Shown here piece by piece: positions 1-15,936 of a DNA stretch of 24,784 nucleotides (its first letter is position 1; every line of letters begins with the position of its first letter). This stretch comes from a virus. Where the stretch lies: the IMG/VR virus record IMGVR_UViG_3300009509_000102, positions 1-24,784 of that record; one strand, written 5' to 3'. The notes beneath the pieces are model-generated. The model saw nothing but the letters and a program-made list of their open reading frames with translations, had not been told where the DNA came from and made no database searches. Made by a program: the position numbers and the translations under genes.

Positions 1-2435
1 ATAGGAAGTTTTGCCATAAAGTTACCAAAACCAGTATTAGTCATTGCCATAGTACCAAGAGTAACAGGAGAAGTCTTTGCATCCCCAGCAAGATAAGCAG
101 TAATACTACCAGAGCTTTGAGCTACTCCAAAGAGAAAGATTCCACGCCATCCCCATTTATTGCCAAGCTCCTTCCAAAGATCAGAAATAATAACATAATT
201 ATCAATAGCTGTATTACTACCAGCGGAATCGACATCACTATAACTATTACATTCAAGATGATATAATCGACCATCAGTACCTCCACCATATTGTAGGTAC
301 TGAGCACTTCCACCAACCACTACAGCGCCACTTACTACATCAACTCCACGATACCAAGGTCCAGCCCACTTCCTATTCATTGTATCAAAGATAAACTCAG
401 TAATAGTAGGAGTAGAACCGCTGTAAATAATTAGATGATACTCTCCACGAAGTCTATCATACCAAGCTCTGGAGTCATCTAAATAGCCATCCTTAACAGC
501 TTCTGAATACGAGGGATCAAAGTAGTTATCAATATCACTGCTAATCTTAAATACCTTAATTCCATCACAAGCATAGACTCCATCATATGACTGAAAGAGG
601 ACAGCGTGTTGAAGAACTTGTCTACCTTCCTGGGCAGGAACTATCATCCTAACTAACTGAATCGTCTCAGGAGCAGGACAGCCAACTGTATCATCTACTA
701 ATAATGTACCAAAGGTCTCTGGACTTTCTCCCTCCATCATCCATACTTCAGTACGCTTAAATACAAGAGCTTCATTATAGAAGTTGACGGCTCCTGTAAT
801 CTTATCTTTATCTCCAAAGGTGACACGTGGCTGGACAGAGCTAGTATTGCCTCCAGAAAGTATAAAGGGATTCTTGTACTCACTATAGTCACCAGTATTA
901 GGAGCGTCCTCACGACCAAAGAGAAAGAGAAACTGCTTAAAATTAAGGCAGCAGGTATAGTTCTTGATCACCTTAGGAGCGGGAATCCCCTTAACTCTCC
1001 ATATCCGCATCTCATCATTGGTATCATTGTAACACTTAGCACTAAAGATTAGTTTATACCAGAACATAGGAACTGGCTTACCGCCAACAACATGGAGTCT
1101 AACAGTCGTACCCATATCATCAAAACGAATCTCTCCACTTTGATTCAGTGTTTTGCTGTTAGCAGAAGTCCCATCCTTCAAGTTAGTCCCAGTGGTATAA
1201 CTAGTCCATGCAGTCCCATTCCAATACTGAACAGTCAAGGTTGAAGCACCACCATCATTATTATAATTACTAACAATATCAATAACGATACCAGTCACAC
1301 GGATTGGAAACCCAATATAAATAGCATCACCAGCAGCTATATCGGTATCAGCAGTAGTATCTGTGAATCTTGCAACTGTCCCAAGCGACTCACTAGCAAC
1401 CTCAGCAACAAAGTCAACATATCGAGTATCTGTAGCATCGTACCATAGAAAGCCAGAGGGAGTTATATAATCACCTGAGGTAACATCCTTAATAGCGGCC
1501 CAAGGCTTAGTTACTGTCACCTTAAGAATATCAACAGCATCTAGTAGTGCAGAAGTAGTTATACGATACCAGAACAAAGTATAACCATTAATTTTTCTAG
1601 GAGCCTCAGTGCCATCAAATGTCCATGTCATAGAACCATCAATAGCAAGAGTAGCACCTCCAGACGCAGTATTATCAGTAACAGTAAGAGCAGACCAAGC
1701 TGAACCAGTCCATTTCTGGATTGTTATAGTTGCCGTATTATTGTTAACAGAAGTACCAAGATCAAAGACGATTCCTTCGATTGGCTGCCAGTAGCCAACA
1801 TAGAAAGCATTCACATTATCAGTAGTAAGAGTGTCAAGAGTAAATGTAGCCTTAGTATCAGTATCTTCATCCATCACTTCATCTGTGTAGATATAGAATG
1901 TCTTTCCATCTTCGGCTGAGCTAGTCGTAGCATTATCAATATCATTACCAACTAGAAAGCCAGCACAGTAAGGAGAAGATCCAGCGTAAGCTATTAGATC
2001 TTTACTATTACAGCCAACAGCTATATCCTCAATAGAACAGAACGATGGAATACTACCACCAGCAGTGAACGTGAATAAAGAGGAACCAAGACTACCAGCA
2101 CCATTACTGGCCTCGGGAACTGAGTCAGCCTTATATAACTTTCGCTCATCTGTCACAGCATAGACATCTTGATAATCAGTCTGGGCACGCTGGTAAAGAT
2201 GCTGCCATATCTTATCCACATCAGCACCACTACCAACAGCAGTTCCATTAAATCTCCTTGCTCCATTCCTGGTCTCAAGTCCTGCTCCCATCTTCATATA
2301 CCGCATATTATATAGGGAGACAAAGTTACTAGTACCAGCAAGGAATCCAGGAACACTCGTAATCAAGCGACCAAGGAACAGCTGATCCTCATACCCAGTA
2401 TCATCCAAGAAATTTTCATGATCTTGTAATGGCAT
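1..2435 (-). CDS. Tail hub / DNA-stabilisation-like virion protein (C-terminus beyond window)
   Basis: The frame is open from an ATG at 2435 to the left edge, giving at least 811 residues without a stop, so the gene is partial. Its start overlaps the stop of the adaptor gene by one base (TAATG). The N-terminus has an NMRYMK...GLETRNGARRF segment, resembling the 'N(M)R...G.x.xRxG' opening of P22 gp10-like DNA-stabilisation and hub proteins. Around residues 505-620 there is FLFGRED, then a VTFGDKDKITG / LVFKRTEVWMMEG block, VGCPAPETI and LFQSYDGVYACDG, the pattern of beta-propeller-type phage hub or stopper proteins. Two beta-rich repeats precede it, each with a tryptophan-centred 'WTGSAWSALTV' or 'WNGTAWTSYTT' motif (about residues 235-245 and 400-410), like carbohydrate-binding-type sandwiches. 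The position after the adaptor supports a neck or tail-hub role. The exact family is an inference. Confidence 0.85.
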   Translation of the reverse strand, partial: MPLQDHENFLDDTGYEDQLFLGRLITSVPGFLAGTSNFVSLYNMRYMKMGAGLETRNGARRFNGTAVGSGADVDKIWQHLYQRAQTDYQDVYAVTDERKLYKADSVPEASNGAGSLGSSLFTFTAGGSIPSFCSIEDIAVGCNSKDLIAYAGSSPYCAGFLVGNDIDNATTSSAEDGKTFYIYTDEVMDEDTDTKATFTLDTLTTDNVNAFYVGYWQPIEGIVFDLGTSVNNNTATITIQKWTGSAWSALTVTDNTASGGATLAIDGSMTWTFDGTEAPRKINGYTLFWYRITTSALLDAVDILKVTVTKPWAAIKDVTSGDYITPSGFLWYDATDTRYVDFVAEVASESLGTVARFTDTTADTDIAAGDAIYIGFPIRVTGIVIDIVSNYNNDGGASTLTVQYWNGTAWTSYTTGTNLKDGTSANSKTLNQSGEIRFDDMGTTVRLHVVGGKPVPMFWYKLIFSAKCYNDTNDEMRIWRVKGIPAPKVIKNYTCCLNFKQFLFLFGREDAPNTGDYSEYKNPFILSGGNTSSVQPRVTFGDKDKITGAVNFYNEALVFKRTEVWMMEGESPETFGTLLVDDTVGCPAPETIQLVRMIVPAQEGRQVLQHAVLFQSYDGVYACDGIKVFKISSDIDNYFDPSYSEAVKDGYLDDSRAWYDRLRGEYHLIIYSGSTPTITEFIFDTMNRKWAGPWYRGVDVVSGAVVVGGSAQYLQYGGGTDGRLYHLECNSYSDVDSAGSNTAIDNYVIISDLWKELGNKWGWRGIFLFGVAQSSGSITAYLAGDAKTSPVTLGTMAMTNTGFGNFMAKLP

Positions 2436-3289
2436 TAGTCATCATTCCTCATGTAGACACCACGGGCTTTCTGTTTCTGTCGATTCTCAATATAATCCAT
2501 GAGATCAAGTTCCAACTTACGATACCAAGTTATAAAGCGATCAAGCTTATTAAACTGAGCAACATCACCTTGGAGACATCTAATAGCAGCTCCGTAAGCA
2601 ACTATCTCATTATGACCAGGGGGAAGCTCAGACTCAGTAGCATACACAGATGTAGCATCTGGGGTAGTTGTGAAGTCAACAGTAGCAACACGTGTACCGC
2701 CAGCGAAATCAGTAATCTGCGCTCTCTCTCCTGCACCAGTACCAGATTTAAGTATGAGCCAGGAGAGATTATAGTAGTCATCTCTAACATCTGGCGGAGG
2801 AGAACTTGCAAAAGTCAAAGTAGTATCAGCACCAGCAGAGGCAGTTCCTTTAAGGAGAAGAGCAGGCCGCTTGGTATAATATAGACGAATGCTTTCACTG
2901 TAACTCTCAGAATTGATGTAAATATAGTTACCACCAATCCAATAGCCGAGTTGCAGATTGCGAGCAAAGGACACTCCAATAGCACTATAAGCACGTCGCT
3001 GCACTACAATAGGCTCAATAGGACGTCCATCAGTATCAGTCACATGGAGAATCTCCATCAACTCAGGCATAGTAGGAAGAGTAAAGATAGTATATTCCCA
3101 CTCAGATGAACCTGGAGTAAGTGTAGTATGCTCTTCGAAGTATCCTTCATTAACCTGCATAACCCTATTGCAGATTTGTTCGTACGACCGATTGATAGCT
3201 CTCAACCTCTTACTTGCATCCCACATAGAAGCTGTAGTATCATGAATTAGATCTTGCAAACATTCATCTATTTGGGCCGCATCACGCAT
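2435..3289 (-). CDS. Head-tail adaptor (P22 gp4 / tail-accessory-like), 284 aa
   Basis: This protein probably binds under the portal and connects the filled head to the tail. The N-terminal half is helical (DECLQDLIHDTTASMWDA, then a RAINRSYEQICNRV helix), followed by a beta-rich middle with YFEEHTT...WEYTIFTLP and MELMEILHV-like strands, and a C-terminal helix with ELPPGHNEIVAYGAAIRCL and a long charged tail. That layout matches head-tail connector proteins of short-tailed phages. The ATG has an ideal SD (AAGGAGGG, 4-5 nt away). The stop overlaps the start of the hub-like gene by one base. Gene order (143-aa protein, adaptor, hub) is typical of the neck module. Assignment rests on layout and motif resemblance, not on a database match. 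Confidence 0.8.
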   Translation of the reverse strand: MRDAAQIDECLQDLIHDTTASMWDASKRLRAINRSYEQICNRVMQVNEGYFEEHTTLTPGSSEWEYTIFTLPTMPELMEILHVTDTDGRPIEPIVVQRRAYSAIGVSFARNLQLGYWIGGNYIYINSESYSESIRLYYTKRPALLLKGTASAGADTTLTFASSPPPDVRDDYYNLSWLILKSGTGAGERAQITDFAGGTRVATVDFTTTPDATSVYATESELPPGHNEIVAYGAAIRCLQGDVAQFNKLDRFITWYRKLELDLMDYIENRQKQKARGVYMRNDD

Positions 3290-3397: not shown

Positions 3398-3829
3398 TTA
3401 ACGTATGATAATGCCCTTTGGTTTCTGATACTCTTTCTCAGTCCTAACACCAATAGGCTTTTGAGTGAGCCTCTGCATGAGCTTTTCATCGTGCGCCGCC
3501 TCATGAGCTATCTGCTCGTTTTTAGCTTCCCATGCTTCCTGCTGTGCCCTATCCTGCTCTTCCAACATATTGATGATAGACTTAATTCCTATCTTATGCG
3601 CATCGCCAGCTCTGAGAATACCAAAGACTCTTTCAGTTAATGGTTCATAACGATGACCAGGTCCAACTATGAGAACTCGCTGCTTCTTACCATACCTATT
3701 CTTCCACCATATTTCCCAACGATTTCTTTTTTCATTCCACTTAAAGGACAAGTCACGGTCAATCTGCTTCAGTCTCTTATTGTAACCAGCAGGAACATTA
3801 GGACGAACGACTCTCTTAACCGTACCCAC
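3398..3829 (-). CDS. 143-aa basic/charged phage protein of unknown function
   Basis: The gene starts at GTG, 2 nt after the TAG stop of the 750-aa gene, with GGAGGT inside the last codons of that gene as SD. The first half is basic and tryptophan-rich, with LSFKWNEKRNRWEIWWKNRY around residues 28-47, reading like a small beta unit ('wn...rWeiw...r.gk'). The second half (about 85-130) is a charged helix with many E, Q, K and A. Small proteins of this pattern occur between capsid and adaptor genes of short-tailed phages, but I know no assigned function. A minor virion or assembly protein is the likeliest role. The 108 nt between its stop and the adaptor hold the adaptor SD and no convincing gene. 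Confidence 0.8.
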   Translation of the reverse strand: MGTVKRVVRPNVPAGYNKRLKQIDRDLSFKWNEKRNRWEIWWKNRYGKKQRVLIVGPGHRYEPLTERVFGILRAGDAHKIGIKSIINMLEEQDRAQQEAWEAKNEQIAHEAAHDEKLMQRLTQKPIGVRTEKEYQKPKGIIIR

Positions 3830-3831
3830 AA

Positions 3832-6084
3832 CTACCTCCAGGCTCTCTTCTTGAACGCTTCAAATGCTTTCTTGATATTGGACTCCGTAGGCTCACCAAG
3901 AACTGAGAATGTACTTCCTGTCACCTTATCTGTAAATAGGTGCATATCAGGAATCTTTCCCATTCCTTGCTGTGGCCCATTGTATATAATGCCAAGAGAG
4001 TCAGCTATCTTCTTAAGCCCTCTCATCTTCCTTCCAGCATACTCCTTGACAACATCTCTAAATCTTCCCACCTCTTCATCAATAATATCAAACTTGGACA
4101 TATGAGGAGGACGTCCAGCAGGAGAGCTAAGACCAGGCAACTCAATCTGCTCTCTCCATGTACCACCAGGAGACATCTCCATTATGGGTAGTTCCTGAAA
4201 TTCTTGCTGTCCCATCAACTCTTGTCTTGCTAATTCCCGCTCACCAATCTCAAGACCAACCTTAGGGGGAGTAGATAGTGGCGTAGGACTAGCAGCTCCC
4301 CTACTTCGTAGTTCGTCCATTATATCATCTAATCTATTCTGCCAATACTCTATATCAGACTGGCCAAGATTACCACCCTTGAGGAATCCTTTAGCAGCCT
4401 CCATCTCTTGGAAAAGTTCTTGATTACCCATGAATCTTGGTTGTATTACTCCCTGCGATGGAGACGCTGGATTCTCTATCTTTATCCCATATCTTGTTGG
4501 AGTATCTTTTAACCACTGAGGATGTCCCTTAATATCCATAGCCCTAGTAGGATCAAACGTCCCCTCCTCAAATCCAGCCATTAACCTCCTAGCAAGTCTA
4601 GCAGCAAACTCTTCCTGTTGAAACTTATTTAGATTCTCAGGAATATAAGGAACTTTTCCTTTTAACGTAACGTTATTCATAACTTGCAGTCTCTTCTTAA
4701 TCTTTTTGCCCCGTTTCTTAATCTTTTTGCTCCGTCCAGTTGCTGAGACCAATTTCTCTATTTCCCGTCTAACTAGAGGTTTAAAACTCCACCATCTACT
4801 TCTATCCGCCATTGTCACATTCCTTTTATCCATTATTCGAATATCTTCCCACTTAGGAATAGCTTCTAATGCTTTTCTAATATCACTGGGATCAAATAGT
4901 GGTTGGGACGGGAGAGGAGACTTGGCAGCAGTAGGTGATGTTCCAGGAGGTTGTGGAGACACTTGTCTTTTTGAACTAACACGCTCAAGAGGACGAAAAA
5001 CATCCTCGGCATTTGTTGGAGTAGTAGTAGGAACGCCTCCAAGATCTTCCCAAAAACTTGAAGACTTCAACATATCATCAGTTAGCTGTCCTTTATTCAA
5101 TAGCTCGACAGCCTTTTCACTCGCTTCAAAACTATTAAAATTGGGCCTAGCTCCATCTACCATATTCCAACGAGTTAATCCTACTAAGGATCGAAGTTGC
5201 GAACCAGCTGTGTGTTGTGGCTGTTGAGCAGCTGCAGCGGGATGATGTATACCAAGATCAAGTATCTTTGGTGCTCCACTTCTAGTCATAACAACATTCT
5301 TAGTTCCTATATCCCCAATCTCAAAGCCAAGTTCTCCCATTCTCTCAGCAAGCTCTTTAGCCCCTTTATACCAATTTATATATAATCTTCGCTGCTCCTC
5401 AATAGGTAGATGACGAATATCATCCCAATCAAGATGATCAATAGCTTCACTCATAAAATAACGGCCTTGACCAGGAGTGGTATACATCTTTGGCATATAC
5501 TTACGAAGAACAGGATCTGTATTAAATAGATACATTCCTGCCTTCTCTCCTGTTTTTCCATGTTCAGCCGCTAAAGTACCTAACATTCGTCGCTCACCCT
5601 CAGTAAAACCAGCCTTGACACCAGCGCCAGGGGCTTGTCCTTTGAATTTATAATACCGACCATATGCACCACCTTCAGGCTGAGAACCAGGAGGAGCTTC
5701 CCATAATCTTCCACGATACTTTGGGTCAAACCATTTCTCAACCTTCTGGATAATAGGAGTTCCCTTCTTAGTGAGCTCTCCTCTTTGAACTGCCTGAAAG
5801 ACTCTCTTAACACCAGGAATAGTACCTATCATCGGCTCATCTACTTCAAGGCCTATATCCTCTCCCTCTCTCAACTGTCTACCAATATCACGCCAATTTA
5901 ACTCACTCAACTTTGGCTTCTCCTCAAAAGCAGGATATAAAGCTCTATGAAGAGCAGCCTTGGGGCCAAAGTATTTAAAGACTTCAGGAGCTACTTCCTT
6001 GAGACCACTAGTAGTGGGTTCACTTCTCATGTAGTCTCTATAACCAGGACGCTTAGCTAATTCTTTTACAATATCATCAGCCAT
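3832..6084 (-). CDS. 750-aa virion-region protein with a protein-kinase-like domain
   Basis: I start at the ATG at 6084 (MADDIVKELAKRPGYRDYM). A longer reading from TTG at 6126 would begin inside a hairpin and has no SD. Residues ~145-290 look like a kinase fold. YYKFKG and EGERRML fit the beta3 lysine and helix C, MPKMYTTPGQGRYFMSEAID fits the strand-hinge region, and GDIGTKNVVM followed by PKILDLG matches the catalytic loop (D..xxxN, about D258 and N263) and the Mg-binding DFG as DLG (about D276). These are visible motifs; activity is not shown. The middle is proline- and serine-rich (low complexity), followed by a very basic stretch with a 7-residue repeat (KIKKRGK), then a helical C-terminus. 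Position between decoration and neck genes suggests a virion or internal protein. It could instead be a degenerate kinase fold used structurally. Confidence 0.85.
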   Translation of the reverse strand: MADDIVKELAKRPGYRDYMRSEPTTSGLKEVAPEVFKYFGPKAALHRALYPAFEEKPKLSELNWRDIGRQLREGEDIGLEVDEPMIGTIPGVKRVFQAVQRGELTKKGTPIIQKVEKWFDPKYRGRLWEAPPGSQPEGGAYGRYYKFKGQAPGAGVKAGFTEGERRMLGTLAAEHGKTGEKAGMYLFNTDPVLRKYMPKMYTTPGQGRYFMSEAIDHLDWDDIRHLPIEEQRRLYINWYKGAKELAERMGELGFEIGDIGTKNVVMTRSGAPKILDLGIHHPAAAAQQPQHTAGSQLRSLVGLTRWNMVDGARPNFNSFEASEKAVELLNKGQLTDDMLKSSSFWEDLGGVPTTTPTNAEDVFRPLERVSSKRQVSPQPPGTSPTAAKSPLPSQPLFDPSDIRKALEAIPKWEDIRIMDKRNVTMADRSRWWSFKPLVRREIEKLVSATGRSKKIKKRGKKIKKRLQVMNNVTLKGKVPYIPENLNKFQQEEFAARLARRLMAGFEEGTFDPTRAMDIKGHPQWLKDTPTRYGIKIENPASPSQGVIQPRFMGNQELFQEMEAAKGFLKGGNLGQSDIEYWQNRLDDIMDELRSRGAASPTPLSTPPKVGLEIGERELARQELMGQQEFQELPIMEMSPGGTWREQIELPGLSSPAGRPPHMSKFDIIDEEVGRFRDVVKEYAGRKMRGLKKIADSLGIIYNGPQQGMGKIPDMHLFTDKVTGSTFSVLGEPTESNIKKAFEAFKKRAWR
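4694..4730 (-). repeat. 16-bp direct repeat encoding a lysine/arginine-rich heptapeptide repeat
   Basis: The 16-mer TTCTTAATCTTTTTGC (plus strand) occurs at 4694-4709 and 4715-4730, a 21-nt period. It encodes consecutive KIKKRGK-type heptads inside the 750-aa kinase-like protein. The exact nucleotide match points to a recent small tandem duplication. The resulting basic patch could bind nucleic acid. Confidence 0.8.
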
Positions 6085-6113: not shown

Positions 6114-6155
6114 GGTAGCCAAGCAAGGAGGGGAACCTTTTATGACCTAGCTACC
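6114..6155 (-). other. Two-tier hairpin before the kinase-like gene
   Basis: GGTAGC (6114-6119) pairs with GCTACC (6150-6155), and inside it AAGG (6125-6128) pairs with CCTT (6136-6139). It lies between the stop of the 203-aa gene (6170) and the ATG at 6084 of the 750-aa gene. No T-run follows on the transcribed strand, so it is not a classic terminator. A processing site or translational control element is possible. Confidence 0.45.
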
Positions 6156-6169
6156 GGCCCGCCCGATTG

Positions 6170-6781
6170 TTAGCTGTCTACTCCAGTGTTAGTAGTTGGA
6201 GCATTGGATGTCCTCTTCCTAGTCCCCTCAGAAGCACCACCAAGAGTGTACTCCAACTCAAGGCCAATGAGACTGATTTCATTTGCAGACCCACTCATGG
6301 TATCACACTCAACAGCAATAGCCATTCCAAAATCAGCAGCGGCAATATCGTTCTGACTAGCAGACTCTTTCCACGCTGTAACTTCAAGAGTGTTCGCTGT
6401 TGTACTACAAGTATGAGCACCAAAAGTGATAGTCTCCTCAGTATTGGCAATAGCATCGCCCAGGGCTGCTTGCTTGGCAAAGAACTGATAGAATACCTTC
6501 CAGATTGGAGTGTCAGCGTCAGTAGATGTATGATGAAACCATATGCGGAACCTAATAGGCTCGTTCCTGTCAAGATCCCAGGGAATGGGAAGGAACGTAT
6601 AGATCTCATCTCCATCAGCAGCAATAGCCAACCCAGACAGTTCTGCCGCAGCAACCATCTCCTGAAAGACAGCAGCGCCAGCACCAAGAGACGCCAATCT
6701 ATCTACTGAGATTCCAAGAAAGTCAGCAGCAGGAATGAACGTCCTCTTGGTTCTCCATGCAATATTATAGTCTCGAATCAT
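6170..6781 (-). CDS. Probable capsid decoration / minor virion protein, 203 aa
   Basis: The gene follows the major capsid gene and begins with an ATG 6-7 nt after GAGGAGA. The sequence is mostly beta-strand with a WDLDRNEPIRFRIWFHH motif near residues 68-84, a FFAKQAALGDAIAN stretch, and ISLIGLELEY near 165-175. The pattern 'W.ld...p...r..w......d...W...Y' ending in 'E(I/V)xLxGLExEY' recurs in jelly-roll-like structural proteins encoded beside phage capsid genes. A head fibre or decoration protein on the capsid surface is therefore likely. This is an inference from position and pattern. The C-terminus is a loose Thr/Ser/Asn tail. Confidence 0.8.
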   Translation of the reverse strand: MIRDYNIAWRTKRTFIPAADFLGISVDRLASLGAGAAVFQEMVAAAELSGLAIAADGDEIYTFLPIPWDLDRNEPIRFRIWFHHTSTDADTPIWKVFYQFFAKQAALGDAIANTEETITFGAHTCSTTANTLEVTAWKESASQNDIAAADFGMAIAVECDTMSGSANEISLIGLELEYTLGGASEGTRKRTSNAPTTNTGVDS

Positions 6782-6858: not shown

Positions 6859-8268
6859 TTAGTAACTAATGTCGGTGAGAACGGCCTGAACATTACGCCG
6901 ACTACAGCCCAACTCCCAGTAACAGAAGAGGATGGCCTCATATGCGTCATATCCAGCAATCTTGGTAAGGATATGACCATCTTCTTCCATCCACTCCATA
7001 TCACTCATCATGTAAATCTGGAGAGCTGGTTCATAGAGGAACATCATCTCACCGTCAACCGCATCATTGTCAACGAACAGTGGAATGCCGTCAAACTCCA
7101 GGACTTTGAAACCACCATCCATGACCTTCCAGTCCACCCACCGTTTGTCAGCCTTTAACAGCTCGGCATACTTCCTACGGATAGCCCTAGTAGTCACCAT
7201 AGCTGTCGGCTGAAGAGCATTACCAGTATCGTCTGCCAACTGAGCCTCAACAGCGTCAACACACTCTTGCATCATCTCCGTAGTCAAAGCTCTCTGAGCA
7301 GCATATCTACCACTGGTATGGGAGAACACATTGGCCTTCCAGAACGAATATGTTGCTACCGGTAGTCCTTGAAGGCCAGCATCGTAGGTAAGGCCATAGT
7401 TGGTAGAGGTTAGTCCTGCAGTAGTAAAGACGGACCCAGGGTTAAGATCATTGACAATGCCGTGAAGTCCCATCATCTCATGACGAAGCACGGGGGCAGA
7501 GGAGGAAGCACCAGTACCAGATATAGTCGTAGTACCAGCCGCACTTCCCTTGATATACACAGTGCCAGCAGCCTCAGTTACTGAGGGGTCAGTCACGGTA
7601 ATTGTATCAGTAAGAGTACCTACGGTAACTGCAGAGGGCGCAAGATTACTGGCATCTACAGCAATGGTATTAGTACCACCACCAGTATAGACCACGACTG
7701 TAGAGTCCATACCAGTAGCTCCTTCGGGCATGATGTACTTGGAACCAAAGGTAGAGCCAAAACCAGCACCACCAGCAGCAGGAAGATAAGCCTTCTGAAG
7801 CTGGTATGCAGTACCACTATCAGTCACGCCCCATCTTGCAAGGATGCCATAGCCAGATCCCCAGAGCTGTCGATTGATGTCCTTGGAAACATCACGAATC
7901 AGCCCCTTCATTTCATAATCAATAGCTTTGGCAAATGCTCCCTTGTCAGTACGGGTAGCTTTGATAGTCGGACCAGACACGGTGATACGACCATAGTTGT
8001 ATTTCATGGGGACGATGGTTGTGATGACTTTCTGATAGCCAGCATCGGGAAGTGCCCCACCATCAGGGAGTGCCCTCGTCCCAAGGTTACGACCATAATG
8101 AGCTGCAATAGTAGCATCCTTGCCAGCAACATCCTCAGTATTCCTCTTCAACCGATTAAGGAGAACAGTAGCATTGTTGATCTGCTCTCTAATCGCAGGA
8201 AGATAGAAGGTCTTGAGAACGTAACTGTAGTTGCTCAATATCGCAGCCGTTGAACCAGTGTAAGCCAC
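6859..8268 (-). CDS. Major capsid protein (HK97-fold), 469 aa
   Basis: This is the main shell protein of the head. The start is a GTG at 8268, 8 nt after AGGAG. That SD lies inside the last codons of the scaffold gene, whose stop is a tandem TAATAG. The N-terminus (NYSYVLKTFYLPAIREQINN, ATVLLNRLKRN) resembles the N-arm region of HK97-fold capsids. MKYNYGRITVSGPTIKATRTD and the AIDYEMKGLIRDVSKDINRQLWGSG helix (about residues 87-135) are the spine-helix and adjoining strands common in short-tailed phage capsids. A Thr/Gly/Ala/Ser-rich beta insert (about 195-260) looks like a surface domain. The last third (MQECVDAVEAQLADDTG, DGIPLFVDNDAV) is the A-domain region. Position directly after the scaffold supports the call strongly. 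Confidence 0.95.
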   Translation of the reverse strand: MAYTGSTAAILSNYSYVLKTFYLPAIREQINNATVLLNRLKRNTEDVAGKDATIAAHYGRNLGTRALPDGGALPDAGYQKVITTIVPMKYNYGRITVSGPTIKATRTDKGAFAKAIDYEMKGLIRDVSKDINRQLWGSGYGILARWGVTDSGTAYQLQKAYLPAAGGAGFGSTFGSKYIMPEGATGMDSTVVVYTGGGTNTIAVDASNLAPSAVTVGTLTDTITVTDPSVTEAAGTVYIKGSAAGTTTISGTGASSSAPVLRHEMMGLHGIVNDLNPGSVFTTAGLTSTNYGLTYDAGLQGLPVATYSFWKANVFSHTSGRYAAQRALTTEMMQECVDAVEAQLADDTGNALQPTAMVTTRAIRRKYAELLKADKRWVDWKVMDGGFKVLEFDGIPLFVDNDAVDGEMMFLYEPALQIYMMSDMEWMEEDGHILTKIAGYDAYEAILFCYWELGCSRRNVQAVLTDISY

Positions 8269-8273
8269 TACTA

Positions 8274-9095
8274 TTACTCCTCTCTTGCTAACGCACCTTC
8301 AAGATACTTGGAGGCAGCCTGAGCAGGAGTCATCACTGATTTACCCTCGTGTCTCTCTGGCATCATACTGAATGTAACATCTTCAGTAAACAGGTCAACC
8401 CCTGGTTTTCCAGGTTCACGAGTCAGTGCATCTTCCTTCTCTTTCTGCTTTTGCTCCTCGTATCTATCAATAGCCGCCTGGTCCCTTTTCCTTAGCTTCT
8501 CTTCCAAAGCCTTGGCATATTCCATTGGAGTATAACGAGGATTATCCCGATGTTGGGCCTCTATGAAGTCCAGCATATCCTCGTCCATACCAGGATAGGC
8601 AGCGCGGAGATCACGCCGTGTCATGACCGCCAATACAGAGCCTAACCCTCTCTCCAGACTTTGGAGTCTATTCTGGAGTGCTTGCTCTTCACGAAGTTGT
8701 TCTGAGGTCTTCCTCCTTGACGTAGTAACAAGATCGTCATCATCATCACTACTAGAGGCAGCTTGTCTCAGAGCTTCATGAACGATACTACCATCTCTGG
8801 AGTTGAGAACACCTAACTCCTCCAGTTCAGCTAGAGTAGCAAGTCCTCCACGAAGAATATCGGCACCCTTCCTATGATCAGTAATGCCGAGATCGTTCAA
8901 CAACTTCCTCACTTCAGCTACCTCCGTTGTCTTCCGAGTATAGTCATCATGACGCATAAACCCAGACCTCGCTTCTGAGAGCGTGACTGTATTACCGTCA
9001 AAGTCTATCACTGGAAGCTCATCGGGTAACTGATCCAACACCTTACCATCAGCATCTTTGATGTCGACGGTATATTTACCCAACTTAATCGCCAT
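8274..9095 (-). CDS. Capsid scaffolding protein, 273 aa
   Basis: This internal assembly protein guides capsid subunits into a prohead and is usually lost before DNA enters. It starts at an ATG with GGAGGAGG close upstream. The N-terminus carries SEARSGFMRHDDYTRKTTEV (about residues 39-58), a 'G(Y/F)MR..DYTRKT' motif common in phage scaffolds. It is followed by an acidic SSSDDDDDL run, a coiled-coil-like EQLREEQALQNRLQSLERGL helix, a long charged helix (about 195-225) and a short C-terminal segment (MTPAQAASKYLEGAL) of the kind that binds capsid subunits. High charge, low cysteine and placement directly before the capsid gene fit the family. No protease signature is visible. Confidence 0.85.
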   Translation of the reverse strand: MAIKLGKYTVDIKDADGKVLDQLPDELPVIDFDGNTVTLSEARSGFMRHDDYTRKTTEVAEVRKLLNDLGITDHRKGADILRGGLATLAELEELGVLNSRDGSIVHEALRQAASSSDDDDDLVTTSRRKTSEQLREEQALQNRLQSLERGLGSVLAVMTRRDLRAAYPGMDEDMLDFIEAQHRDNPRYTPMEYAKALEEKLRKRDQAAIDRYEEQKQKEKEDALTREPGKPGVDLFTEDVTFSMMPERHEGKSVMTPAQAASKYLEGALAREE

Positions 9096-9511: not shown

Positions 9512-9662
9512 CCTTCCCCTCCTTTGTAGCGATTATCATAGCAGCTACCATATTCGCCTTTTGCCTAGAACTATGACAAGACTTGGTAGAACCATCTCTA
9601 CGCACCAGGCAGAACCGGCGATCTCTGGGATTGTCTTTGCGGTACTCCACCTTGTACGGCAT
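9489..9662 (-). CDS. Hidden 57-aa basic protein overlapping portal and the 133-aa gene
   Basis: This short gene has an ATG at 9662 preceded by AAGGAGGG at 4 nt, the best SD in this stretch. Its protein begins MPYKVEYRKDNPRDRRF, then CLVRRDGSTKSCHSSRQKA and a helix ANMVAAMIIATKEGK. It resembles the tiny 'MPYKV...(strand)...(strand)...K.KA..(M/A)..A' proteins seen near portal genes in many phages. The 5' 65 nt overlap the portal C-terminus and the 3' 23 nt overlap the next gene, all in different frames. It is basic and has two cysteines. Function is unknown. Confidence 0.7.
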   Translation of the reverse strand: MPYKVEYRKDNPRDRRFCLVRRDGSTKSCHSSRQKANMVAAMIIATKEGKDGFTRGK

Positions 9663-11565
9663 TTGGCCCTCCTTGTAATTGCATCATCTGCATCTGCCGT
9701 TGTTGTAACCTTTCAGTATGCTGTTGATTGTGCTGCATGAAAGCAGTCATTATATTATCTCCACCTGGCTTTCTTAACATAGCCTGCACCTCAGGACGCT
9801 TAATATCCCTATCATGCTCTGCCAAGTGAATCATATCATTATCATAACTATTAATAGGAATAGCCATACCTACACGCATCATAAGATTCTCATTCTGAGC
9901 AACATACTGATCTGCACTAACATCATCGTAGATATCCTCTTCAAGCGCATCATCAAGGAGTCTACGAACTTTGCTAGTAACTTGAGGATCTTGTGGAGGA
10001 CCATAGAGACCAGCTTGGAATCTCTCCATAATAAGAGCCTGCTTAGTCAGCCTGTTCTCAGGAAGATGTCTACCAGTCTCAACATGAACATCAGTGTTAT
10101 TCTTAAGATCAGCACCAACAAAAGATTGAACTCTCACATCATGTCCCTCACCCACTATCTTCAAAGTCCTAGTTGTTGAATACCTCTTCTGAGCAATCAA
10201 TAATACATGACGCCAAACAGCAGCCCACTGATCCTCAAAGTCTTGATATGTCACAGCCTGTGTAGTATCATCCTGCTCTAACAACATAGCTACCATAGAA
10301 GCAGATCGCAAGTCACTACGATTCTGTCCTTGAGTAACTTCGTGCTGAGAAAATAAATCCATCATAGACTGACGGTTAATCTCCATTGCTTGAAAAGTAG
10401 CTTGGGGCAGAGGCGTTATTCTGGCTTGTTGGGGGACAAACCCACGATGAAAGGAGAACTCAACAACCTCACCATGCTCATTATCAATAGCTGTCGGCGA
10501 AAGCATTTGGCCTTTAATTGCCAGCCACTTCCCTTTTGCCATAGTACGCACCCACTCAATAACACTACTACGTACTCGGTTCCAGTCCTTCTGCAAGTCT
10601 ATAGCTTGCTCCATCGTCGCCTGGCCCCAAAGTAATCCAGGTATAACTATATCCCTAAAGTGAGTAACAGGATACTCATATACTGGTTCCTCGGGAGTGC
10701 CATAATTAGGAAACTTTCCCCTATGGCACATAACATTGTTGGCTACTACAAAGTATTCTCCTTTGGGATACTTGTTGGTTGGCTTGATGTATATCTCCTT
10801 CACAATAGCAGATGGAACATGAGCGACTTCCATACCAGATACACTCATATCAAGATCACGCATTAACATCAGTATATTCTGATCTGCAGAAAAACTCTCT
10901 GGAGTAACATCCTTACCGTACTTATCTTTGATCCAATCAATAGTCCGTAACTTGGCTCTAATTCCCCACGGCATATCCTCAACTTCACAAGGGCCAAAGC
11001 TAATAGTTGGAAAATACCAGGAGAATGGACCGTCAACCTCAAGAGCAACTTCCTTCTTATCTTTATCCCAGAAATCTACAACAAAAGCATTACCACAAAT
11101 AGTAACCCAGTTAGCAAGATCTCTGGTAATCTTAGGAGCTTTCAACTTTCTATGAAGATGCTTAATGAGACTTGTACCAAGATTTGCAGCATCTATATCC
11201 TCTCTTGATGTGGTCTCAGGTAGTACCTCTGCCCGAGGACGAAGACGAAGTAACTTAGACTGCTGCTTGAGAACACGAGGGCGAATCTGATTATCAGTAA
11301 GACGTATCCTTCTTGTATCAGAAGTAAGATGTCTATTAAGACCACCATAACTGGTATCCCAATAGACATACTGCTCCCCTTTGTAAAAAGCTCTATTGAT
11401 ATACCAGCGAATTTCAAATATTCTACGAAGCTGTTTAGCAAGAGCAAACTTATTCCTAGAGAAGTCAAGAAGCTCCTTATCTCTAAGGGCAGCCTCCACT
11501 CTCTCAGCCTTAAGTTTCATCAATCGCTGAACAAAATTATTACCTTCCTTGACTGCCGTCGCCAT
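9598..11565 (-). CDS. Portal protein (P22-like), 655 aa
   Basis: The portal forms the ring at one head vertex through which DNA enters and leaves. Visible marks include a long N-terminal helical region, TDNQIRPRVLKQQSKLLRLRP (about residues 89-109), GNAFVVDFWDKDKK, the PVTHFRDIVIPGLLWGQATM segment, and the stem-like IDLQKDWNRVRSSVIEWVR helix. Later come ARITPLPQATFQAMEINRQS, LRSASMVAMLLEQDD and the FEDQWAAVWRHVLLIAQKRY helix. The C-terminus is glutamine-rich (barrel-like tail, MQHNQQHTERLQQRQMQMMQ). The length of ~650 residues fits short-tailed phage portals. The ATG overlaps the previous gene by 26 nt, and its SD is weak, so translational coupling is likely. Confidence 0.93.
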   Translation of the reverse strand: MATAVKEGNNFVQRLMKLKAERVEAALRDKELLDFSRNKFALAKQLRRIFEIRWYINRAFYKGEQYVYWDTSYGGLNRHLTSDTRRIRLTDNQIRPRVLKQQSKLLRLRPRAEVLPETTSREDIDAANLGTSLIKHLHRKLKAPKITRDLANWVTICGNAFVVDFWDKDKKEVALEVDGPFSWYFPTISFGPCEVEDMPWGIRAKLRTIDWIKDKYGKDVTPESFSADQNILMLMRDLDMSVSGMEVAHVPSAIVKEIYIKPTNKYPKGEYFVVANNVMCHRGKFPNYGTPEEPVYEYPVTHFRDIVIPGLLWGQATMEQAIDLQKDWNRVRSSVIEWVRTMAKGKWLAIKGQMLSPTAIDNEHGEVVEFSFHRGFVPQQARITPLPQATFQAMEINRQSMMDLFSQHEVTQGQNRSDLRSASMVAMLLEQDDTTQAVTYQDFEDQWAAVWRHVLLIAQKRYSTTRTLKIVGEGHDVRVQSFVGADLKNNTDVHVETGRHLPENRLTKQALIMERFQAGLYGPPQDPQVTSKVRRLLDDALEEDIYDDVSADQYVAQNENLMMRVGMAIPINSYDNDMIHLAEHDRDIKRPEVQAMLRKPGGDNIMTAFMQHNQQHTERLQQRQMQMMQLQGGPNAVQGGVPQRQSQRSPVLPGA

Positions 11566-11888: not shown

Positions 11889-12251
11889 CTATACTCCAAT
11901 CATCATAACATTATCAGGTAGTGTGGCATGACCAGAAGTAGCCCAAACCTCACTAGGAGCAGCTCCAGCAGCAGATTGAGTAGCTCCAGTCTTGAGAGTA
12001 ACAATTCTAAGAGTATTAAGCTTCATACTAGCCACAATAGCCACAATCTGTCCAGACAAGACCTCATCACCAACAATCGTTGTCTGCATCCAGATAAGAG
12101 CAAGAGCACCAGGGGCAATCCCAGAATACAGATAAGTAGACTGCATCCTATCATTAGCATTAAGAGTGCTGTCTGGAACTGGAGGAATTGTGAATAACCC
12201 GATAACTCCAGTAACACTCCTACGCTTATTCTCAGTATCAAGATTAGCCAT
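11889..12251 (-). CDS. 120-aa phage structural-region protein
   Basis: The ATG overlaps the stop of the 921-aa gene by one base (TAATG). The protein opens NLDTENKRRSVTGVIGLFTI, then PPVPDSTLNANDRMQSTYLY and SGIAPGALAL. This 'NLDT..KR.S......P...PDg....DR....YLY.GI' pattern occurs in small phage proteins found next to fibre-like genes. The remainder is mostly hydrophobic strand (VLSGQIVAIVASMKLNTLRI), ending in a short loose tail. It is probably a virion protein, perhaps associated with the fibre-like product encoded before it. No function is established. Confidence 0.8.
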   Translation of the reverse strand: MANLDTENKRRSVTGVIGLFTIPPVPDSTLNANDRMQSTYLYSGIAPGALALIWMQTTIVGDEVLSGQIVAIVASMKLNTLRIVTLKTGATQSAAGAAPSEVWATSGHATLPDNVMMIGV

Positions 12252-15016
12252 TAAGCGTGCTCACCCTTGGTAAAAGTAGTACCATCATCACTAACAGCAC
12301 AACTGAACAAGACACCAGTCCCAGCATCATCGTAGACCTTCTGAGTAGCTGATGTCGTTTCAATCTTATTCCTAAATATTGTATACAGATAATCAATCTT
12401 ACTACCTGTTGGAGCAGTAGCAGATGGAGCACCAGCACTTGGCTCTGCTGTAACAGGCTTAATACTAGCACCATCAAGAGTCGATAGAATATCACTAATG
12501 AGACCTGTATTCTGAGTAACAGCACTGTCTAACGGCCCATCAATAGTAGAAAGGATAGATTGTGTATCAGCCAGGATACTAGCCACAACTCCACTAAGAT
12601 CATCAGTTGCAATATTAGATATTGCCTGCGTATCTGTTAGAATTGAACTAGCAACTGCACTAAGGTCAGTAGTAGGAATATTACTAATAGTTGCCGTATC
12701 AGCCAGGATCGTATCAAGATCTCCCTGATTCCTATCCAAGGTTGAAAGAACAGGTCCATCAACTGTTGATAAGACATCACTGATTAAGCCAGTATTCTGG
12801 GTGATAGCAGAGTCAAGTGGACCATCTATCGTAGATAGTATCTTTGATGTATCATCAAGAATACTTCCAACAGCAGCACTCAAGTCCGTTGTTGGAATAT
12901 TACTAATTGTAGCAGTATCTGTCAAGACTGAAGCGACATCAGCTAGAAGTGAGTCAAGATCAGTCTGATTTCTATCAAGAGTAGAGAGCACTGGACCGTC
13001 AACAGTAGAAAGAACATCACTAATAAGTCCAGTATTTTGAGTAACTGCTGAATCAATAGGCCCGTCTAAGGTACTAAGAATATCAGAAACAATAGTCTCA
13101 AGAGCATTCAATCCATAAGTAGCATTATCCAATCTAGAATTAGTACCATATGCAGCTAGGGCACTTAGATCTCCAGTAACACCAAGAGCACTCCTTATCT
13201 GCTTACGCTCTGATTCTGTCCAGTCTGCAGCACCAGCAGTTCCCTGAGCTACTACTATTGATTCAATGTTAGATAGATTACTATCCACCGGCCCATCAAG
13301 AGTGGATAGTACGTCTGAAATTAAAGTTTCAAGAGCATCAAGACCATATACAGCATTATCTAGTCTTGAGATTGCACCATATGCTTCAAGAGCCGATGTG
13401 GCCCCACTGATACCTAATGCCGATCTTATTTGCGCCTTTTCTTTAGCTCCCCAATCACCGCCCCCAGCCCCCTCAAGGTAACTAACTGTAGATTCGATTG
13501 AGGACAACATCGAGGTAATCGGTCCGTCAATAGTGCTAAGAACTTCATCTATAGCAGACTTAACACCATAAGCCTCAAGAGCAGAAGTAGCACCACTGAT
13601 ACCAAGAGCACTTCTAATCTGTGCCTTCTCCTTTGCTCCCCAGTCTCCCCCTCCTGCCCCTTCAAGATAGCTTACAGTTGACTCTATCGAAGAGAGCATA
13701 GAAGTAATAGGCCCGTCTAATGTACTTAAAATGGACTTTGTATCTGATAAGATAGAGCTGATACTATCAGAGTCACCACCAAGAACGGCTACAATAGACT
13801 CAATATTACTCACATCACTAACAACTTGTGCCCAATCATCCTGTATATCTGTTGTATCTGCAAGAATACTTGTTGTCCTATTTTCAAGAGTAGTTCCTGT
13901 ATCAACTAGGATAGATGCTACAGTGCTAAGAATAGACTTAGTGTCAGACAGGATAGACGTAATATTATTTGTATCACCACCCAATACTCCAACAACACTT
14001 TCGATATTACTCACATCAGATACTACTTGCGCCCATTCTGGTTGTATATCAGCTGTATCAGCTAGGATAGATGTAGTCTTAGCTAGAATTGAACTAATAC
14101 TATCTGAATCACCACCTAATACACCAACAATGCTAGTAATATTTGAAAGATTGCTAGCAACTGGCCCATCAATTGTACTATCAATCTTATCAAGAGTGCT
14201 TAAGATAGGTCCATCAAGAGTACTTAGAATAGATTTTGTATCCGCTAAGATTGAACTAATACTATCAGAATCTCCTCCAAGAACAGCTACTATACTCTCA
14301 ACATTGCTAATATCAGATACGACCTGTGCCCAATTATCCTGGATATCCGTGGTATCAGCTAGTATACTCACAGTTCTATTCTCAAGCGTTGTTCCAGTAT
14401 CTCCCAGAATTGAAGTAACCGTACTCAGAATAGACTTAGTATCTGATAAAATTGATGTTATATTATTAGAATCTCCTCCCAATACTGTAACAATAGATTC
14501 TACATTACTAAGATCAGAGACTACCTGCGCCCAATTATCTTGAATATCTGTTGTATCCGCCAAGATACTAACAGTACGATTCTCTAGGGTAGTTCCAGTG
14601 TCAGCTAGTATCGAATTAACAGCATCCAGGATACTAGATTGTCGATTCTCCAAGGTTGTACCAGTATCCACTAAGACACTGGTAGTATCAATCAAAATGC
14701 TTGTAGTATCATTAAGAATGGAGCTTAACTTCGCAGCATAACCATCTTCAGGATAAAAGATAAGCCATTGAGCAGCACATCCAGTACCAGTCATTTGGAG
14801 AGCCACAACACCAGCATTGGTCTCAGTAGCAGCCAGTGTAATAACATACAAACCAGAAGTGACTTCACTTACAGTATTTGAGCAGGTAGATAAGCCTCCT
14901 CCATCCTTGGAATACTTTGCAGTTACAGATATTCCAGTTTCAGGAGTTGCAAAATCTGTCGCATCTACCATAAGCCATGATACTTTTTGACTTGCTACAT
15001 TCTTCTGGATAGACAT
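12251..15016 (-). CDS. 921-aa repeat-rich fibre-like protein
   Basis: The N-terminal ~90 residues form a beta domain (MSIQKNVASQKVSWLMVDAT, GISVTAKYSKDGG, SGLYVITLAATETNAGVVAL) resembling the head domain found on many phage fibre or baseplate-type proteins. Residues ~94-850 are a long repeat array built from SILADT, LSTLDGP, TTLENRT, ADIQ.xWAQVVSD and VLGGDS units. These give a regular spacing of I/L suited to a trimeric fibre or coiled coil. Three copies of a 'W...E..QIRSALGI(S/T)G' motif sit in the middle; it recurs in phage fibre proteins. The C-terminal ~45 residues (KIDYLYTIFRNK, KVYDDAG, VSDDGTTFTKGE) are a small domain also typical of these proteins. It is translationally coupled to the glycosyltransferase (TAATG). 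Confidence 0.85.
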   Translation of the reverse strand: MSIQKNVASQKVSWLMVDATDFATPETGISVTAKYSKDGGGLSTCSNTVSEVTSGLYVITLAATETNAGVVALQMTGTGCAAQWLIFYPEDGYAAKLSSILNDTTSILIDTTSVLVDTGTTLENRQSSILDAVNSILADTGTTLENRTVSILADTTDIQDNWAQVVSDLSNVESIVTVLGGDSNNITSILSDTKSILSTVTSILGDTGTTLENRTVSILADTTDIQDNWAQVVSDISNVESIVAVLGGDSDSISSILADTKSILSTLDGPILSTLDKIDSTIDGPVASNLSNITSIVGVLGGDSDSISSILAKTTSILADTADIQPEWAQVVSDVSNIESVVGVLGGDTNNITSILSDTKSILSTVASILVDTGTTLENRTTSILADTTDIQDDWAQVVSDVSNIESIVAVLGGDSDSISSILSDTKSILSTLDGPITSMLSSIESTVSYLEGAGGGDWGAKEKAQIRSALGISGATSALEAYGVKSAIDEVLSTIDGPITSMLSSIESTVSYLEGAGGGDWGAKEKAQIRSALGISGATSALEAYGAISRLDNAVYGLDALETLISDVLSTLDGPVDSNLSNIESIVVAQGTAGAADWTESERKQIRSALGVTGDLSALAAYGTNSRLDNATYGLNALETIVSDILSTLDGPIDSAVTQNTGLISDVLSTVDGPVLSTLDRNQTDLDSLLADVASVLTDTATISNIPTTDLSAAVGSILDDTSKILSTIDGPLDSAITQNTGLISDVLSTVDGPVLSTLDRNQGDLDTILADTATISNIPTTDLSAVASSILTDTQAISNIATDDLSGVVASILADTQSILSTIDGPLDSAVTQNTGLISDILSTLDGASIKPVTAEPSAGAPSATAPTGSKIDYLYTIFRNKIETTSATQKVYDDAGTGVLFSCAVSDDGTTFTKGEHA
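12467..14737 (-). repeat. Coding tandem-repeat array of the 921-aa protein
   Basis: About 757 codons are made of recurrent amino-acid units: SIL.DT (many), STxDGP (many), DTGTTLENR (four), DIQ.xWAQVVSD (four), VLGGDS/T (four or more), W...E..QIRSALG (three) and QNTGLISDxLST (several). Repeats are clear in protein but weak in DNA, because copies use different codons. The best pair is 13376-13528 and 13565-13717, 51 identical residues. Confidence 0.85.
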
Positions 15017-15936
15017 TAGATGAATCTCCTATATATGTCTATAGCTTCTTTAGCCATTGTCTCCGCACTAAGATTCTTTTCTGCATACTGTCTTTGATGA
15101 TTAGGCCTATCTTCCCAACACTGACTAATCTTCTCTGCCATATCGTCAGGATCATAAGGCTCGCATTTGTAATCAGCATGGGGATTAGTCTTATAAGCTA
15201 CCACAGGCTTATTACAAGCAAGAGCCTCTAAGCTGACACGGCCATAAGATGGAAAGACTGGACTTACTACAATATCAGCCATATTAATAAGTCCACACAT
15301 ATTAGACTGTCTCTTGAAAATACCAGGAGTAAATACAGTAAAGTGATTTGTCTTAATTAAACGCATCCAAAATTCTTGATCTCCCTCAGGACAGCCAAAT
15401 GGATAGAATCTCATGTTAGGAATCTTCCTACTAACCTTATCCAGAGCTACCAAAGCATGAAGAGGATGCCTAAATGTTCTCCAATGTTCACAATAAAGAA
15501 TAGCTGGCTTTCCTGTCAACTTCTTTTCAATCTTCTTAGGCTTAAATCTCTCAAGATCAATGCCTTTAGTAATAGTATAAGTTCTCATGAATGATGACCA
15601 AATTCTTGCCTCATCTGGATTAAAAGCTATAAAGGCGTCCATACGAGGCATGAGATCCATAATAGCTTGAGTACTAATCTTGTGAAGCATACCATAATCT
15701 GGCTCACCATGAAGGAATAACAACTTTGGCTTCTGATCTTTATAATAATATGGATTAATCTGACTATGAACACAGTGAATATCACAATCATCATCTGTGA
15801 AACCATAGAAAGTCTGATTCTCCTTCGGTGTGCGTAGAGCTACAGAATGACCTAACCGCTCCTCATACTTAGCCAACTCCACAGTAGTGTAAAATAATCC
15901 ACTATTCTCCTTTTTCAACCAGTGAAGTATCTTCAT
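15016..15936 (-). CDS. Glycosyltransferase, GT4 / GT-B type, 306 aa
   Basis: This enzyme transfers a sugar from a nucleotide donor to an acceptor; donor and acceptor cannot be read from the sequence. The N-terminus (MKILHWLKKENSGLFYTTVE) has the start of a GT-B Rossmann half with a glycine where donor enzymes bind acceptor. KGIDLERFKP near residue 125 is the classic 'NG(V/I)D...F.P' linker. PSYGRVSLEALACNKPVVAY (about 230-248) matches the GT4 E(x7)E region, with the second Glu (about 239) kept but the first replaced. Length is short for the family (usually ~350-400). Its ATG overlaps the previous stop (ATGA), and its stop overlaps the next start (TAATG). It is thus coupled between two virion-type genes, which suggests modification of virion proteins, or less likely of host surface sugars. 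Confidence 0.88.
   Translation of the reverse strand: MKILHWLKKENSGLFYTTVELAKYEERLGHSVALRTPKENQTFYGFTDDDCDIHCVHSQINPYYYKDQKPKLLFLHGEPDYGMLHKISTQAIMDLMPRMDAFIAFNPDEARIWSSFMRTYTITKGIDLERFKPKKIEKKLTGKPAILYCEHWRTFRHPLHALVALDKVSRKIPNMRFYPFGCPEGDQEFWMRLIKTNHFTVFTPGIFKRQSNMCGLINMADIVVSPVFPSYGRVSLEALACNKPVVAYKTNPHADYKCEPYDPDDMAEKISQCWEDRPNHQRQYAEKNLSAETMAKEAIDIYRRFI

Follow-up and report, generated by a model that had tools for sequence, protein, structure and literature searches.

What does a protein with kinase motifs do among the virion genes of a phage? We asked this of a 24,784-nucleotide stretch of virus DNA (IMG/VR record IMGVR_UViG_3300009509_000102, positions 1 to 24,784; hereafter the window), in which a sequence-only reading had proposed a kinase-like virion protein at positions 3832-6084. 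These coordinates proved right, with the gene on the minus strand, and the 750-aa product, P0002, carries the motifs at the residues given by that reading: MSEAID at 211-216, GDIGTKNVV at 257-265 (D258, N263) and DLG at 276-278. An alternative TTG start at position 6126 would yield a protein of 764 aa. The genes on the minus strand run in the order portal, scaffold-like, capsid, 203-aa protein, P0002, 143-aa protein, neck/ring-like and tail-like (Table 1), confirming that P0002 lies within the virion-gene cluster, between the capsid/decoration and neck genes, a placement shared with a sister phage (L002).

Table 1. Coordinates of the features discussed, in the window unless a related contig is named.
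Feature	Coordinates	Strand	Basis
Neck/ring-like protein	2435..3289	(-)	Weak CrAss_Ring_2 match, E 0.013, below cut-off; same-order homologues in relatives
143-aa conserved gene closing the slot	3398..3829	(-)	Homologues in L002, L012; weaker in L015, L016, L017, L019, L020
P0002 gene, kinase-like domain protein	3832..6084	(-)	Open frame, ATG start, 750 aa; homologue at same gene position in L002
C-terminal segment of P0002, about residues 660-750	3835..4107	(-)	Single-sequence model; faint similarity to C terminus of L012 HEXXH protein
Basic stretch SKKIKKRGKKIKKR, residues 452-465	4690..4731	(-)	Sequence
Kinase-like domain, about residues 130-345	5050..5697	(-)	Homology to P0003; profile matches to protein kinases, reversed control empty
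LDLG metal-binding motif (D276)	5251..5262	(-)	D276-L-G278 kept in P0003
Catalytic loop GDIGTKNVV (D258, N263)	5290..5316	(-)	D and N kept in P0003; aligns with PDB kinase catalytic loops
Hinge-like MSEAID, residues 211-216	5437..5454	(-)	S212-E213 kept in P0003
GVKAG with candidate ATP-binding lysine K157	5608..5622	(-)	K157 kept in P0003
Glycine loop GGAYGRYY, residues 138-145	5650..5673	(-)	G139, G142 kept in P0003 (GHGAIGTF)
203-aa neighbour, probably decoration or head protein	6170..6781	(-)	Homologues directly after capsid gene in L015, L017, L018
Major capsid protein	6859..8268	(-)	phrog_14242, E 2e-60
Scaffold-like protein	8274-9095	(-)	
Portal	9598-11565	(-)	
Cys-rich slot proteins	L015:12079-13002, L016:6976-7893, L017:10341-11249, L018:12169-12963, L019:6994-7833, L020:11519-12454		
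Post-capsid proteins	Window 6170-6781; L002:11417-12337; L016:5799-6665; L019:5922-6923	(-) in window	

A divergent kinase-like domain shared with a sister phage

By itself, P0002 matched nothing in Pfam, PHROGs or NCBIfam. A tblastn search of 50,697 phage records gave no significant relative, and a PDB sequence search gave nothing useful among solved structures. One close relative of its phage, reached via the capsid gene, is IMG/VR contig 3300033149_003051 (L002), whose capsid and portal proteins are 71% and 57% identical, respectively, to those of the window. At the matching gene position L002 encodes P0003 (349 aa, L002:12732-13781), whose homology to P0002 spans residues 75-345 of the latter (blastp 3e-20, 27% identity). 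Kinase-domain scans of viral and genome contigs recovered this sister contig alone, and tblastn of P0003 against phages and against plasmids found no relatives. With P0003 the only homologue found, residue conservation is read here from two sequences.

The domains are 30% identical over 222 aligned columns and have G139, G142, K157, E164, S212-E213, D258, N263, K273 and D276-L-G278 in common. P0002 shows the kinase order of glycine loop, lysine, catalytic aspartate, asparagine and metal-binding aspartate, and this order is conserved in P0003, whose motifs are more canonical (glycine loop GHGAIGTF, catalytic loop DAHEGNIVF) and whose catalytic sequence is YTDAHEGNIVFDEDGILKIVDLG. All three residues that the sequence-only reading had singled out for comparison with homologues (D258, N263 and D276) are kept in P0003, the one homologue, as is K157 of its proposed lysine strand. 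The glutamate-bearing helix is the weakest item of that reading: E164 is conserved but lies only 7 residues after K157. In typical kinases the spacing from this lysine to the helix glutamate is wider. The assignment of the alpha-C glutamate in both proteins is uncertain from their sequences, and the HRD histidine is missing at its expected place in both.

P0003 alone gave sub-threshold matches to Pfam ABC1 (E 0.012-0.031, 13.8-15.2 bits against a curated cut-off of 22.9), Pfam APH (E 0.07-0.12, 12.6-13.2 bits against a cut-off of 23.2) and a PHROG kinase family (E 0.0016). P0002 matched neither the ABC1 (PF03109) nor the APH (PF01636) model; RIO and HipA, for which there was no separate search, were absent from the Pfam matches listed for P0003. 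Against the PDB, the best kinase for P0003 alone was PERK (E 0.12), with PknA at 0.31. A two-sequence profile built from the P0002 and P0003 domains was then searched against 177,635 distinct PDB sequences up to E 10. All but one of its 44 matches (43/44) were protein kinases or kinase-like and aligned around the catalytic loop, the best being PknA (E 0.0019), and the reversed-profile control returned zero matches. The change for PknA from 0.31 with P0003 alone to 0.0019 with the pair indicates that adding P0002 strengthens the kinase signal.

A single-sequence AlphaFold model of whole P0002 was unusable (pLDDT 41). As the structure check suggested by the earlier reading, we modelled the P0003 domain with P0002 as its sole companion sequence. 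All 50 Foldseek matches listed were kinases (best E 0.006, TM about 0.3), but the model itself was of low confidence (mean pLDDT 55, pTM 0.57). Realignment of the model gave Z 6.7 over 163 residues at 4.5 Å. Unconvincing by itself, this weak model agrees with the sequence evidence. The claim of a kinase-like domain is backed by the homologue, by the profile with its clean reversed control and by this weak structure model, and we regard the kinase-like fold of P0002 as real, very divergent and, for practical purposes, established.

P0002 consists of this one recognised domain and about 400 aa without known relatives, and the HEXXH motif is absent from its sequence. The basic stretch at residues 452-465 may possibly contact nucleic acid. 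The C-terminal segment was modelled, from the single sequence, as a helix, three strands and a helix, with pLDDT of about 62-83 over residues 681-750.

A variable slot between decoration and neck genes

We compared the position of P0002 with that in further relatives, fetched with a wider capsid profile. In L002 the slot holds P0003 followed by P0004 (347 aa, with HEMSH). Two other records, L006 and L012, are one phage and the contig ends inside the slot; the first bases of the L012 contig encode a HEMYH-containing protein of 526 aa, and the next genes are the homologues of the 143-aa gene and the neck gene. In L015-L020, whose capsid proteins are 45-52% identical, the slot is occupied by a Cys-rich protein of ~300 aa unrelated to P0002. 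A profile search detected no kinase domain in the records of these six distant relatives, all with a readable slot, an empty result that proves little alone. The content of the slot between decoration and neck genes varies from relative to relative.

Neither the HEXXH proteins nor the Cys-rich family could be placed by profile: the former matched no Pfam peptidase model above cut-off, and HEXXH alone is insufficient proof of a peptidase, while the Cys-rich members tested, which carry the motifs CxxCWK and LKRGCTE, had no Pfam match. Tblastn of P0004 and of the L012 HEXXH protein against phages found no relatives. The position directly after the capsid gene also varies, with the 203-aa protein in some phages and a longer protein in others (a beta-helix in L002); these are probably alternative decoration proteins.

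Some slot proteins may resemble one another at their ends. The motif DxFGLxxxYPxL occurs N-terminally in both P0003 and P0004 (shuffle p 0.0005; this pair was chosen after inspection). P0002 and the L012 HEXXH protein have a faint C-terminal pattern in common that is suggestive only of a shared tag (shuffle p 0.03), and either terminal pattern could be a packaging signal. A shared middle region of P0002 and the L012 protein was rejected as not significant (p 0.46).

Proposed role of P0002 and its alternatives

We lean towards P0002 being kinase-like accessory cargo of the polyvalent type, made late, packaged and injected with the DNA to modify host proteins. In phages, polyvalent proteins generally have genes close to those of the virion, and packaging followed by injection has been proposed for them; protein kinases and zincin peptidases are among them (Iyer et al. 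2017, PMC5512222). Such proteins combine two or more domains of disparate activity in one chain, whereas in P0002 one domain is recognised. The sequence-only reading had held that kinase-like folds are usually not placed at such a position, but the placement is less unusual than this since phage proteins that carry kinase domains and have genes close to the virion genes were already described in 2017 (PMC5512222). P0002, in which a long C-terminal tail follows the compact atypical kinase-like domain (residues about 130-345), would belong to a tailed, podovirus-like phage. It would probably be made late alongside the capsid proteins, enter the virion and be delivered to the host together with the DNA. 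Inside the cell it would draw on ATP-Mg to modify host proteins early, by phosphorylation or in another way, and so favour infection. We infer its packaging, injection, catalytic activity and target. An injected host-takeover protein, one of two roles suggested by the sequence-only reading, would fit best, judging from gene position and the published polyvalent-protein pattern.

The other suggested role, assembly regulation, would have P0002 acting in the producing cell while particles assemble or mature, with capsid or neck proteins, for instance, as phosphorylation targets. Such a role would suit the location of P0002 and P0003 between capsid and neck genes in both the window and L002. However, other proteins fill the slot in relatives that share the capsid, portal and neck genes, with the kinase domain undetected: six distant relatives have no detectable homologue and a nearer one has an HEXXH protein in the slot. 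Since relatives can lack the kinase domain, it is unlikely to be needed to build the particle, and the variable slot content argues against a general assembly role and for accessory polyvalent-type cargo. We consider the assembly role disfavoured and distinctly unlikely.

No more probable is that P0002 is a pseudokinase, its fold kept for binding or structure and not for catalysis. The replaced HRD histidine, the presence of Gly-Thr-Lys in P0002 where P0003 has His-Glu-Gly, and the unclear alpha-C glutamate would be consistent with this, but two diverged copies both retain the lysine, the catalytic aspartate, the asparagine and the metal-binding aspartate; we regard catalysis by P0002 as likely. 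Its activity might instead be ATP-dependent transfer of the APH/ABC1 type, to a small molecule or another non-protein substrate, given that the nearest Pfam matches of P0003 are ABC1 and APH and that P0003 has the DxHxxN loop used by APH-type enzymes. We think this less likely still: both matches fall far below cut-off, and nearly all solved-structure matches are protein kinases. That P0002 has no kinase fold and resembles kinases by chance would be in keeping with its lack of any profile match alone and its poor single-sequence model, but is highly improbable in view of the conservation in the homologue and the kinase profile matches with an empty reversed control.

Beyond the accessory-cargo reading of P0002, a broader scheme seems conceivable if unlikely: an exchangeable effector slot by the capsid genes where proteins of the kinase, HEXXH-peptidase and Cys-rich kinds swap, with shared terminal virion-targeting tags and a new minimal protein kinase family. 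If true, the slot would be a phage counterpart of polymorphic effector cassettes. A virion-delivered kinase could alter host proteins ahead of any phage gene expression, and we know of no head-borne phage kinase whose target has been demonstrated. A variable slot holding a kinase domain so divergent that present profile libraries miss it suggests where to seek more such effectors, and the P0002 domain, at about 215 aa, offers a small unit for activity testing.

Comparison with known systems

Among the closest known systems is Kinase-PolyVal (PF18762), whose group features include a His-Asp insert and a glutamine (PMC5512222). Searched with an E limit of 10, neither the window nor the L002 record matched this model, and P0002 is not a detectable member by sequence search. 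Like Kinase-PolyVal, P0002 is a phage protein with a kinase-like domain and a gene among those of the virion; it also has an apparently reduced C-terminal part of the kinase and, in a relative, an association with HEXXH proteins. Unlike Kinase-PolyVal, P0002 has one recognised domain rather than several, and the insert between the conserved His and Asp of the phosphotransfer site cannot occur in the published form, the histidine being missing in both P0002 and P0003; at the glutamine position, P0003 has Q (YQLSE) and P0002 has F (YFMSE).

P0003 resembles ABC1 and APH (PF03109, PF01636) in its D-x-H-x-x-N loop and DLG, but scores well under the curated cut-offs and has a glycine-rich loop. In the profile alignment with the bacterial Ser/Thr kinases PknA/PknB, the hinge, alpha-E, catalytic loop and metal-binding motif follow one another as they do in those kinases, although similarity is very low (E 0.0019 at best), the HRD histidine is missing and there is no recognisable activation segment. 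The proposed delivery of virion cargo with the DNA is as for T4 Alt and P1 DdrB, injected head proteins (PMC5512222), but these are different enzymes and packaging of P0002 is a prediction. Literature searches turned up no report of a P0002-type domain or slot; what is new here is the divergent kinase-like domain and the variable slot, while the delivery idea is a published theme.

Other genes of the window and its relatives

Several further genes were observed in these phages. In L002, the end (GHLWKWVDGINV ... GGRPA) of a 425-aa protein (L002:4242-5519) without a Pfam match recalls the C-type-lectin fold of diversity-generating-element variable proteins. A sulfotransferase gene (PF13469, E 1e-24) lies between the portal and scaffold genes at L006:12292-13086. 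In the window, a glycosyltransferase gene (PF00534, E 7e-9; 15016-15936, minus strand) sits inside the morphogenesis cluster between structural-looking proteins of 592 aa and 921 aa; the latter (12251-15016, minus strand) contains many near-repeats (SILADT, LSTLDGP) and probably forms a long coiled or fibrous part of the virion.
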